Below are positions 31,171 through 33,900 of a DNA stretch of 64,000 bases, piece by piece. Within the stretch, counting starts at the first letter, position 1. Every line of letters begins with the position of its first letter. This stretch comes from Hyphomicrobiales bacterium. Its GTDB lineage: Bacteria > Pseudomonadota > Alphaproteobacteria > Rhizobiales > Beijerinckiaceae. Below the pieces are notes generated by a model. That model had not been told where the DNA came from. It searched no databases and was given only the letters and a program-made list of their open reading frames with translations. The stretch covers positions 1 through 64,000 of the forward strand of contig UBNE01000013.1 of the NCBI GenBank assembly GCA_900466745.1, in the 5' to 3' direction. Position numbers and translations under genes: made by a program.

Positions 31171-31815
31171 ATGAAGCGTCTCGCAGGGATCGTCCGCCAG
31201 TTCGTCCTGTGGCTCGGGATCGCCATCGGCCCCATGCTGCCGGCCGCCGCGCCCGGCCTTGCCGCCGGCGGCGGTTCGACGCCGGGGGCGGGGCGCGCCA
31301 GCGCCTTCGTCCAACCCGTATTGCCGGCGGATTTCTGCGCCGTGGTGCCGGGTGCCGGCGCCATGCAGGGAGAGCTCTGGCGCAGGACGGTCCCGCCCCC
31401 GGAGCGCGGCGCGACGCTGCGCTTCCTGGCGGTGGATTGCGCCAGCTTGCACCGGCTGGAGGCGGGGCACCTCGCCCGGCCGGCCGCGATGCTGACGATC
31501 TTCGACCTCCAGCCCGATCCGCGCCTGCCGCCGGCGCCGGAGGCCGCGCTCGAGGCGCTGGAGAAGCGATTCGGCGCGCCGGAGCTCGCGGCGAAGGCGC
31601 CCGTGCTCGGGCGGGACGAGCAGGCCGTCTATCTGCAGCAGGGGGACTGGTCCGCCCAGGCGGCGCCGGGGCCGCGCGGCGTGTCGGCCTTCGCGTTCCG
31701 CGGCGCCGGACCCTTCGTCGTCAATATCTTCCACTTCGCGAAGCCCCCGGCCGTCACGGCGGTTCGCGAGCAGGTCGAGGGCGTGGTGCGCAGCGTGATC
31801 GAGGGCTCCCGCTGA
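31171..31815 (+). CDS. Exported hypothetical protein
   Basis: A 214-residue product. Residues 1-37 look like a signal peptide (MKRLAGIVRQFVLWLGIAIG and a cleavage region around AAAPGLAAG). The mature part has a segment ending AVVPGAGAMQGELW and a C-terminal beta-rich half. AGGAGGCAGG lies before the ATG. The rhodanese, small membrane protein and this gene are closely spaced and may form one transcript, closed by the hairpin at 31862. I do not recognise the family. Confidence 0.65.
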   Translation: MKRLAGIVRQFVLWLGIAIGPMLPAAAPGLAAGGGSTPGAGRASAFVQPVLPADFCAVVPGAGAMQGELWRRTVPPPERGATLRFLAVDCASLHRLEAGHLARPAAMLTIFDLQPDPRLPPAPEAALEALEKRFGAPELAAKAPVLGRDEQAVYLQQGDWSAQAAPGPRGVSAFAFRGAGPFVVNIFHFAKPPAVTAVREQVEGVVRSVIEGSR

Positions 31816-31861
31816 GATTTCGCCGGCTCATCGGCGATTGTTCACAGGCGGGGTTGCGTCC

Positions 31862-31882
31862 TGCCTGAAATTCAGGCATTTT
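31862..31882 (+). terminator. Terminator ahead of the ABC-exporter leader
   Basis: TGCCTGA and TCAGGCA pair around AAT, followed by TTTT at 31879-31882. It ends the upstream group of genes 47 bases after the stop codon at 31815, which means the leader that follows probably has its own promoter. Confidence 0.75.
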
Positions 31883-31920
31883 CCTCCGCCTTGGCTCCAA
31901 CTCACGAAAGGGAGGGCTGA

Positions 31921-31968
31921 ATGGCATTCACCATCTTCGTCGCTCCCAGGCGACCAAACCGGCACTAG
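31921..31968 (+). CDS. Candidate 15-residue leader peptide
   Basis: ATG at 31921 opens a frame that reads MAFTIFVAPRRPNRH and stops at TAG (31966-31968). AAAGGGAGGG lies seven bases upstream, one of the best ribosome-binding sites in this part of the window, although no longer gene starts here. Codons 10-12 are AGG, CGA and CCA, rare in this GC-rich genome. It lies 138 bases before the exporter's ATG. I infer a regulatory leader peptide; expression is unproven. Confidence 0.55.
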   Translation: MAFTIFVAPRRPNRH

Positions 31969-32017
31969 GTCGGTCTCGCGCGAGGTCCGCCGGCTGGCGA
32001 CCTCCTGAGCCTTTTTC
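31967..32017 (+). promoter_or_regulatory. Attenuator-like hairpins between leader peptide and ABC exporter
   Basis: The strong hairpin is GAGGTC at 31982-31987 with GACCTC at 31999-32004, extended by GCC/GGC around GGCT, followed by TTTTT at 32012-32016. Two competing pairings exist. AGGTCG at 31967-31972, which overlaps the leader stop codon, pairs with CGACCT at 31998-32003. Also, 31972-31977 can pair with 31982-31987. Either would dissolve the terminator-like hairpin. This is the layout of translation-dependent attenuation. Confidence 0.5.
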
Positions 32018-32051
32018 CAAACCCTTTCGTTCTTCGCTGGAGCCGGCGTGC

Positions 32052-32084
32052 GCCGCCGTCTCCCTTCGATCTGGAGTCGGCGGC
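32052..32084 (+). promoter_or_regulatory. Stable hairpin just upstream of the ABC exporter
   Basis: GCCGCCG at 32052-32058 pairs with CGGCGGC at 32078-32084, and CTCC with GGAG inside, leaving a 9-base loop. The stem lies 22 bases before the exporter ATG, which itself lacks a good Shine-Dalgarno sequence. It could gate translation. Confidence 0.45.
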
Positions 32085-32106
32085 CTTCGCGGCGCCGAAT
32101 GATCCT

Positions 32107-33900
32107 ATGTCTCTCGATACTCAAACCGAGCGGCGCGAGCCGTTCCGGGCCGTTCTCGGCTTCACCTTCCGTCATTGGGCCCGCCAGCCCGGAAAGGTCG
32201 CCTGGGTGGCCGGCGTCATGGTCGCCGCCACCCTCGCCGAGCTGTTCACACCGGTCTACGCCGGCCGCCTCGTCGACGCCGTGGCGAGCGGCACCGGCGG
32301 CGCGGAAGCGGCGCTGTGGGCGCTCGCCGCGATGATGGCTCTGGCGGCGGTCACCGTCGCGGGGCGGCATTTCGCCTTCGTCGGCCTCATCAGCATGACG
32401 CTCCAGACGATGACGCAGGTGGCGCAGGAGGCCTTCGCGCGCCTGCAGCGCTTCTCGACCGACTGGCACGCCAACAACTTCGCCGGCTCGACAGTGCGCA
32501 AGATCACGCGCGGCATGTGGGCGCTCGACCTCCTGACCGACACGATCCTGATCGCGCTGCTGCCCTCGCTGGTCATCCTGCTGGGCATGACGGCGCTCCT
32601 CGCCTGGCAGTGGCCGGTGATGGGGCTCGTCGTGGCGCTCGGGGCGCTGGCCTATATCGGCATGACGCTCACGCTCTCGCTGCGCTTCGTCGCCCCGGCG
32701 GCGCGGCTGGGCAACGCCTGGGATACGCGGCTGGGCGGCGCACTGGCGGATTCCATCACCTGCAACCCGGTGGTGAAGGCCTTCGGCGCCGAGGCGCGCG
32801 AGGATCTGCGCCTGGCGACGGTGGTGGCGAAGTGGAGCCTCAGGACGCGGCGCGCCTGGCTGCGCGGCACCTGGTCGGGCACCGGCCAGCTCGTCGTGCT
32901 GCTCGCCCTGCGCGCCGCGGTGATCGGCCTGGTGATCTGGCTGTGGCTGAACGGGCAGGCCGGCGCCGGCGACGTCGCCTTCGTGCTGACGGCCTATGCG
33001 GTGGTGCACGGCTATCTGCGCGATGTCGGGCAGCACGTCCACAATCTCCAGCGCTCGGTCAACGACATGGAGGAGCTCGTCTGGATGCACGACCTTCCCT
33101 ATGGCGTGCCCGACCGCAAGGGGGCGGTGGCGATGGAGGTCACGCAGGGCGAGATCGCCTTCGAGGACGTGACCTTCCATTACGGCGGCCATCACGATCC
33201 GCTCTACCGGGACTTCTCGCTCACCATCCGCGGCGGCGAGAAGGTCGGCCTCGTCGGCCGCTCGGGCTCCGGCAAGACGACCTTCGTCAAGCTGGTGCAG
33301 CGGCTTTACGACGTCACCGGCGGGCGCATCGCGATCGACGGGCAGGACATCGCCGGCGTGACGCAGGAGAGCCTGCGCCGGCAGATCGCGATCGTGCAGC
33401 AGGAGCCGGTGCTGTTCCACCGCTCGCTGGCCGAGAACATCGCCTATGGCCGGCCCGGCGCCTCGCTGGCGCAGATCGAGCAGGCGGCGCGGCTCGCCAA
33501 TGCGCATGACTTCATCATGCGCCTGCCCAAGGGCTATGCCACGCTCGTCGGCGAGCGCGGCATCAAGCTCTCGGGCGGCGAGCGCCAGCGCGTCGCGCTG
33601 GCCCGCGCCTTCTTGGCCGATGCGCCGATCCTGATCCTGGACGAGGCGACCTCCAGCCTCGATTCGGAATCGGAGGCGCTGATCCAGCAGGCGATCGAGC
33701 GGCTGATGGAAGGCCGGACCACGATCGTCATCGCGCACCGCCTCTCGACGGTCAGGGCGATGGACCGCATCCTGGTCTTCGATCGCGGCCGCGTGGTCGA
33801 GGAGGGGCCGCACGAGGCCCTGCTCGCCCGCGAGGACGGTGCCTATCGCGCGCTGTTCGAGAAGCAGGTCCGCGAGCTGGCCAAGGGGCTGGCGGCCTGA
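32107..33900 (+). CDS. ABC exporter with fused membrane and ATPase domains
   Basis: The 597-residue half-transporter has a six-helix type-1 exporter domain (about 15-310) and a nucleotide-binding domain (about 345-590). Walker A is GRSGSGKTT at 384-392, the signature LSGGERQ at 488-494, Walker B ILILDEAT at 508-515, and the switch histidine is His544. It should act as a dimer that exports lipids, peptides or drugs. The 5' region carries a leader peptide and attenuator-like hairpins, suggesting inducible expression. Poor Shine-Dalgarno ahead of the ATG. Substrate unknown. Confidence 0.9.
   Translation: MSLDTQTERREPFRAVLGFTFRHWARQPGKVAWVAGVMVAATLAELFTPVYAGRLVDAVASGTGGAEAALWALAAMMALAAVTVAGRHFAFVGLISMTLQTMTQVAQEAFARLQRFSTDWHANNFAGSTVRKITRGMWALDLLTDTILIALLPSLVILLGMTALLAWQWPVMGLVVALGALAYIGMTLTLSLRFVAPAARLGNAWDTRLGGALADSITCNPVVKAFGAEAREDLRLATVVAKWSLRTRRAWLRGTWSGTGQLVVLLALRAAVIGLVIWLWLNGQAGAGDVAFVLTAYAVVHGYLRDVGQHVHNLQRSVNDMEELVWMHDLPYGVPDRKGAVAMEVTQGEIAFEDVTFHYGGHHDPLYRDFSLTIRGGEKVGLVGRSGSGKTTFVKLVQRLYDVTGGRIAIDGQDIAGVTQESLRRQIAIVQQEPVLFHRSLAENIAYGRPGASLAQIEQAARLANAHDFIMRLPKGYATLVGERGIKLSGGERQRVALARAFLADAPILILDEATSSLDSESEALIQQAIERLMEGRTTIVIAHRLSTVRAMDRILVFDRGRVVEEGPHEALLAREDGAYRALFEKQVRELAKGLAA

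Follow-up and report, generated by a model that had tools for sequence, protein, structure and literature searches.

Attenuators of the trp type carry a short leader near the 5' end, a hairpin around the leader stop codon and another hairpin after it. Leader frames are also found ahead of exporters: in Bacillus subtilis, the frame bmrB precedes the ABC exporter genes bmrCD and responds to translation inhibitors (PMC4191407). In Sinorhizobium meliloti, a DUF1127 gene is subject to uORF-dependent attenuation, for which Rho-dependent stopping has been proposed (PMC12218461), and genes 25 and 38 of phage T4 are described as having split ribosome-binding sites (PMC3014915).

We analysed a window of 64,000 nucleotides from a genome of 4.49 Mb, for which 'Bosea' is used here as the genus label (its closest named relatives are Bosea). 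A 15-codon frame in this window precedes the gene of an ABC exporter. We propose that it is part of a cis-acting leader in which translating the short frame, and not the peptide, sets exporter expression, a reading to which we assign a probability of roughly one half. The features concerned, given as coordinates, strand and description, are the following.

31854..31859, + strand: predicted -35 element TTGCGT, spaced 17 nt from the -10 element; its position is kept among relatives
31877..31882, + strand: predicted -10 element CATTTT, overlapping the 'terminator' (31862-31882) of the first-pass annotation; its position is kept among representatives
31893..31897, + strand: 5' strand of P0, GGCTC, with its partner GAGCC at 32007-32011; candidate closing helix, only in Bosea and close kin
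31910..31915, + strand: Shine-Dalgarno (SD) sequence of the leader, GGGAGG, invariant across 32 Bosea rows
31921..31968, + strand: leader ORF of 15 codons, MAFTIFVAPRRPNRH, with ATG at 31921 and stop TAG at 31966-31968; from comparative conservation
31910..31947, + strand: P1, GGGAG (31910-31914) paired with CUCCC (31943-31947), masking the leader SD; from local folds and cross-family tests
31950..31979, + strand: P2, 31950-31953 with 31976-31979 and 31958-31963 with 31969-31974, leader stop in the loop; from cross-family tests
31982..32004, + strand: P3, hairpin 3' of the leader stop, arms 31982-31991 and 31996-32004; from cross-family tests
32012..32016, + strand: T-run after P3; a hairpin of -20.2 kcal/mol ends ahead of it
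32073..32076, + strand: SD of the exporter, GGAG, 30 nt upstream of the exporter ATG; from the SD position in representatives
32077..32098, + strand: H4, hairpin separating the exporter SD from the ATG (split ribosome-binding site); from z-scores and local folds
32107..33900, + strand: stand-alone ABC exporter half-transporter of 597 aa; from structural relatives and NCBIfam

The arrangement resembles bmrB-bmrCD in that a leader, presumably translated, stands directly ahead of an ABC exporter, with hairpins overlapping the frame and the ribosome as presumed sensor. The bmrB frame has 53 residues, three alternative stem-loops and a terminator within its coding region, whereas the leaders described here have 12-44 codons and lack a conserved alternative helix; they belong to Alphaproteobacteria and precede a single half-transporter gene with a split ribosome-binding site (PMC4191407). 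The S. meliloti uORF is likewise alphaproteobacterial, with a predicted hairpin that pairs its ribosome-binding site with its first codons and with control that tracks its translation, but its target is the DUF1127 gene and the term 'ABC transporter' is absent from the main text of that report, the likeness being one of arrangement (PMC12218461). As in the trp-type leader trpL of S. meliloti, there is a short frame near the 5' end with a hairpin around the stop and a hairpin after it, but here there is neither a codon run for a single amino acid nor a covarying antiterminator (PMC10117765). In T4 genes 25 and 38, structure between SD and AUG shortens an over-long spacer, as it may do here, from 22 to 5 nt and from 27 to 11 nt; the present case differs in being a chromosomal gene with its SD about 30 nt upstream, found in many families and with a leader frame in front (PMC3014915). 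Each part is of a known kind; what looks new is how they are combined, how widely the combination occurs and that it seems not to depend on the peptide. A search of titles and abstract openings found no published description of this leader, which is no proof of absence. Rfam gave three matches up to E 5 for positions 31700-32200 of the window, all far under their gathering scores, and no match for 20 of the loci.

Conservation of the leader frame

Within the genus, 26 of 37 genomes, the window's own counted in, carry an orthologue of the exporter; so do 88 of 397 from the order (E 1e-75) and 30 of 385 sampled from the class, two of these 30 being the window's own and one of the earlier order genomes. 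A search of genome_contigs gave at least 558 matches, from which 80 named loci were retained, chiefly of Mesorhizobium and Bosea; the genera among the named loci with the exporter include Bosea, Mesorhizobium, Aminobacter, Ensifer, Devosia, Microvirga, Labrys and Dongia. The set comprised 196 upstream regions, of which 16 duplicate another locus, leaving 180 distinct ones. A k-mer filter applied to the leader-bearing loci gave 85 representatives in 27 clades.

Strict calling required an ATG-initiated frame of 10-30 codons that starts 140-300 nt upstream of the exporter ATG and has an SD match of at least 5 nt. Such a leader was present in 144 of the 180 distinct regions, where 3.0 were expected from dinucleotide shuffles, and in 156 of 196 with repeats included (3.2 expected from the same kind of shuffles). 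The frame at 31921-31968 and its SD, proposed in the first-pass annotation with correct coordinates, are therefore conserved far above chance. Looser calling, by a score with manual fixes at six loci (L043, L054, L063, L064, L067 and L089), gave a curated leader in 172 of 180 distinct regions and 187 of 196 overall, with lengths of 12-44 codons across relatives. A leader preceded by a strong SD was present in each of the 28 loci first examined, 26 of Bosea and two from other families. The tie between frame and exporter holds order-wide, and the frame has a predicted promoter of its own. Among 28 loci from other orders, judged by eye and without a control, about six were clearly similar (L201, L203, L204, L207, L208 and L211).

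By curation the leader is absent from 8 of the 180 distinct regions. Nine loci were assigned manually to this class (L049, L074, L079, L085, L100, L101, L115, L116 and L180), and in L074, L079, L085 and L116 the score had proposed a weak frame. In L074, L079 and L085, a 15-codon frame (e.g. MTSFALYHRMTSVRS) lies some 285 nt upstream of the exporter start in the alignment. To the eye, it begins only a few bases past a -10-like element, such that the leader of these loci may be translated from a leaderless transcript. L100, L101, L115 and L116 are second copies of the exporter, and the other copy in each genome has a leader; the weak frame that is all L116 offers was set aside, and L100 has by eye an H4-like hairpin.

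Promoter

The best -35/-10 pair in the window is TTGCGT and CATTTT with 17 nt between them, and 38 nt separate it from the leader ATG. Over the 85 representatives the promoter score was 6.61, compared with 5.18 in shuffles (p 5.8e-16), and the -10 element ended at -40 to -33 relative to the leader ATG in 73 of them, where shuffles gave an expectation of 14.2. The window promoter is predicted to be sigma-70-like, and its position would put the transcript start about 30 nt ahead of the leader ATG. The first-pass annotation had read 31862-31882 as a terminator and had seen no clear promoter; that stretch overlaps the predicted promoter, whose position and distance relatives keep.

Hairpins of the leader

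Scanning z-scores over the 85 representatives showed four sharp peaks, corresponding to P1, P2, P3 and H4, with windows between them at -0.18 to +0.58. P1, which joins the leader SD to leader codons, had a mean z of -1.03 (p 4.5e-13), P2, around the leader stop, -1.02 (p 4.3e-10), and P3, 3' of the stop, -1.24 (p 7.3e-16). In local folds, P1 was seen in 81 of 85 representatives, and a fold energy of -6 kcal/mol was reached in the P2 window in all 85, in that of P3 in 80 and in that of H4 in 84. The letters of the hairpin at 31982-32004, our P3, of the T-run at 32012-32016 and of the exporter ATG at 32107 are as first annotated, but that description had missed both P2, with the leader stop in its loop, and the split ribosome-binding site formed by H4.

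Covariation was assessed on 78 segment pairs by comparing the pairing of each segment with its own partner and with partners from other clades (Bonferroni limit 6.4e-4). Only three pairs fell under the limit, namely P3 (p 4e-7), P2 (p 1.9e-6) and P1 (p 2.1e-4), while the arms of H4 lay over it (p 1.2e-3). A coarser pairing test gave p 8.4e-5 for P1 and 0.055 for P2. In a 63-nt window at the leader stop, the fold energy was below that of shuffles (mean z -0.45, p 3.5e-5) and stop-spanning pairs numbered 9.31 against 9.12 in arm shuffles (p 0.31). P2 is supported by the finer-window tests, the coarser pairing tests being not significant. Taken alone, the window sequence gave no significant hairpin (z -1.06, -1.40, -1.07 and -1.17 for P1, P2, P3 and H4), such that the hairpins become visible through comparison only.

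In longer folds of the window, the leader SD takes another partner instead of P1. These folds contain an 8-bp helix between ACGAAAGG (31904-31911) and CCTTTCGT (32023-32030) that masks the leader SD region and was not seen among the relatives folded. A pairing of the leader SD with the invariant arm GGCCCGCC, suggested by RNAalifold on the Bosea alignment, was discarded, its mean in the energy models being 0.00-0.01 and its top value 0.21 (in L024, with the ribosome at codon 9). In the Bosea clade (n=34), the CUCC motif of P1 occurs in two codon phases, 27 and 6 loci, and is absent in one.

Proposed mechanism

Taken together, the comparisons suggest a device that needs the leader to be read but depends little on the peptide produced. 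In the scheme we propose, the leader frame would be translated, and P1 would mask the leader's own SD and so give the first ribosome a brief kinetic window. With abundant active ribosomes, the ribosome would depart once it had read the leader to its stop; RNA polymerase, now uncoupled, would be halted before the exporter, either by Rho or at P3 in those leaders that have a T-run behind it. Under impaired translation, whether from ribosome-targeting drugs or from a shortage of ribosomes, the leader would stay unread or the ribosome would halt early, termination would fall and the exporter would be produced from its split ribosome-binding site. The exporter would thus probably be made when translation is impaired and be kept low by premature termination otherwise. 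This direction is proposed by analogy with the published leader frames that respond to translation inhibitors, bmrB and the S. meliloti uORF; direction and transcriptional output, both of which we infer, are the weakest steps of the proposal.

More tentatively, we would regard these regions as one so far undescribed family of mRNA leaders in alphaproteobacteria. The frame, free in sequence, masked by its own P1 and holding its stop codon in the loop of a hairpin, would act as the sensor that signals ribosome activity to an exporter with a split ribosome-binding site. If the proposal is right, many alphaproteobacteria control one exporter by sensing ribosome activity through leaders of 12-44 codons; the exporter is then predicted to respond to translation stress, which would be a lead towards its substrate. 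It would also offer the study of split ribosome-binding sites a widely conserved chromosomal case, tied to a peptide-independent ribosome sensor.

The split ribosome-binding site of the exporter

H4 is the strongest of the hairpins (mean z -1.77, p 2.3e-19 over the 85 representatives). An SD match for the exporter is present in 68 of the 85 representatives and absent from 17; in 47 of the 68, the longest match ends in the bins from -35 to -26. A far SD with a hairpin and no near SD was found at 110 of 192 exporter starts and at 5 of 96 neighbour ORFs, a rough background with ORFs called mechanically (a near SD in just 22 of 96) and repeats kept. The exporter start is, as judged from sequence and predicted folds, of the split layout, with an SD too distant from the AUG and a stable hairpin between them.

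H4 and the far SD count in favour of translational control at this site, the main rival to our reading: translation of the leader would alter folding at the split ribosome-binding site and so regulate exporter initiation, with the output at translation and not at termination. By its letters, the CUCC strand of P1 could pair with the exporter SD, GGAG. However, no pair of a leader segment with an H4 segment passes correction, and in L180 (Mesorhizobium erdmanii USDA 3471), where no leader was found upstream of the exporter, H4 is retained by eye, which suggests that H4 may be a simple device of the ribosome-binding site. We consider translational control unlikely on balance. Pairing of the 5' UTR with the exporter SD region, a candidate in its own right, was rejected at p 0.074. 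L180 provides a natural test for H4 working alone.

Termination signals and alternative pairings

The first-pass annotation had interpreted the window as a trp-type attenuator, in which stalling at rare Arg codons would leave the antiterminator arms free, whereas a ribosome at the stop would permit the terminator. The letters of the window do allow both of the alternative pairings on which this interpretation was built. In the relatives, however, neither covaries: the own-versus-swapped comparison over the 85 representatives gave p 0.64 for the first (stop+0 to +9 with stop+28 to +49) and p 0.89 for the second (stop+3 to +16 with stop+14 to +29), and the same run returned p 9.7e-7 for P3 and 8e-7 for P2. 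The second alternative lies within 31966-31999 of the window, a stretch whose fold is equalled or bettered by 119 of 200 shuffles (z +0.36), and 34-nt windows from stop-8, -4 and 0, which can hold it too, do not rise above shuffles among the representatives (z 0.05, 0.21 and -0.15). No conserved pair of mutually exclusive antiterminator and terminator helices was found among the 78 segment pairs.

Energy models gave a P3 probability of 0.87 in the window whether the leader was free, being initiated, or occupied by a ribosome at codon 9 or at the stop, such that no switch is predicted there. In seven other Bosea loci (L003, L004, L006, L008, L010, L124 and L126) P3 does rise when a ribosome occupies the stop, to 0.63-0.87 as compared with 0.00-0.40 for the free leader, which is what such an attenuator would show; close kin lack this change (L005, 0.00 to 0.08; L011, 0.70 to 0.74). 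The AGG-CGA-CCA run is present in the window as described, but stalling codons are not conserved: of 32 unique Bosea leaders, 2 have the run and 23 have CGA, which in many is part of the outer P2 arm. The 85 representatives have AGG in four cases and CGA in 37. TTTT lies 3' of P3 in 14 of the 32 Bosea leaders. We regard trp-type control as quite unlikely.

Termination before the exporter, as in the scheme proposed above, has signs of its own, which are weak. Owing to the T-run at 32012-32016, P3 is a candidate intrinsic terminator in the window. Terminator-like sites were found in 32 of 85 representatives against 15.8 expected, a twofold enrichment only, and the C-over-G ratio of 1.5-2.1 at stop+40 to +70 is matched by 1.83 in the 5' UTR and 1.69 inside the gene. 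Read-through of the stop to fuse leader and exporter, which the letters of the window would permit, was considered and rejected, the distance between them modulo 3 being 0, 1 and 2 in 13, 11 and 8 of the 32 Bosea leaders.

Leader peptide and stop codon

The refuting conditions named in the first-pass annotation were a lack of conservation of peptide or stems upstream of orthologous exporters and a transcript start downstream of 32017. The outcome is mixed: frame and hairpins are kept, with the predicted transcript start upstream, but the peptide sequence mostly is not. Leader peptides vary between families, as in MTAVMYSPLAGKRRI, MAGFDIVMRGREA, MPAFSFSLRGGVQF and MGYMFVPIDPGPSEH. The pN/pS ratio was 0.67 in the leader frame of Mesorhizobium (1.48 and 2.05 in the other frames), 0.54 in f16 (1.28 and 0.99), 0.74 in clade 2 (1.76 and 0.64), 0.89 in Microvirga (0.42 and 0.91), 1.11 in Bosea (0.92 and 0.97) and 1.85 in the Devosia type (1.02 and 0.68). 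Since it is below 1 in four of the six groups, although another frame is lower still in clade 2 and Microvirga, some selection on the peptide is possible; it appears weak or mixed, and is clearest in Mesorhizobium and f16.

These two groups lend some weight to an arrest peptide, in which the nascent chain would stall the ribosome on a drug or metabolite, as does composition: the peptides of the representatives contain Pro in 74 of 85 and Arg in 76, with an Arg within the last four residues in 62. In Bosea, however, the codons for the C-terminal Arg residues double as the 5' arm of P2 and the Pro codons as a strand of P1, such that RNA pairing can explain those residues. Given also the variation between families and the ratios of about 1 or more in Bosea and the Devosia type, we regard a ligand-sensing arrest peptide as improbable.

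The leader stop is TAG in 152 of 187 leaders, and 91 of the 187 have the hexamer TAGGTC at the stop; TAGG was found in 50 of 85 representatives and 16 of 27 clades. In Bosea, the letters 3' of the stop belong to the P2 hairpin as part of its 3' arm, a pairing that may not account for all of the preference for TAGGTC.

A structural RNA alone, riboswitch or small RNA, with an incidental frame would account for three to four fixed hairpins and for the closing helix P0 among Bosea kin. Most families, however, have an SD, an ATG and an open frame; Bosea leaders have 15, 16, 20, 21 or 42 codons between like start and stop contexts, all changes of length being multiples of three; and Rfam has no match. 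We hold this explanation to be very improbable. P0 is present in the minimum free energy folds of L006, L007, L014, L033 and L035; as a general helix it was rejected (p 0.14 over the 85 representatives). The 42-codon leader is that of L009 and L125, which are one contig of Bosea sp. Root381, and arose through in-frame tandem repeats (EFVPSP and EFASWP units), the enlarged leader retaining both start and stop contexts. A chance frame with chance hairpins, to which the window with no significant hairpin of its own might point, is ruled out by the comparative conservation counts.

The exporter and its tie to the leader

Relatives of the exporter with solved structures include P-glycoproteins, Sav1866 and MsbA, and the best 25 of 188 NCBIfam matches are each under their cut-off. 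A search for a plasmid-borne homologue of its first 200 residues (E 1e-50) gave no match. A model of the Bosea leader judges the genus only and misses the known Devosia-type leader of G041; of 28 same-genus genomes, it found one strong copy in exactly those 21 that have the exporter. With stricter filters, the sequence-only Bosea model gave no strong match elsewhere in the genome in 46 genomes. Neighbour genes were rejected as a clue to function, since they differ among the 10 loci viewed (by eye, without a family search); from this difference, leader and exporter appear to travel together as one unit.
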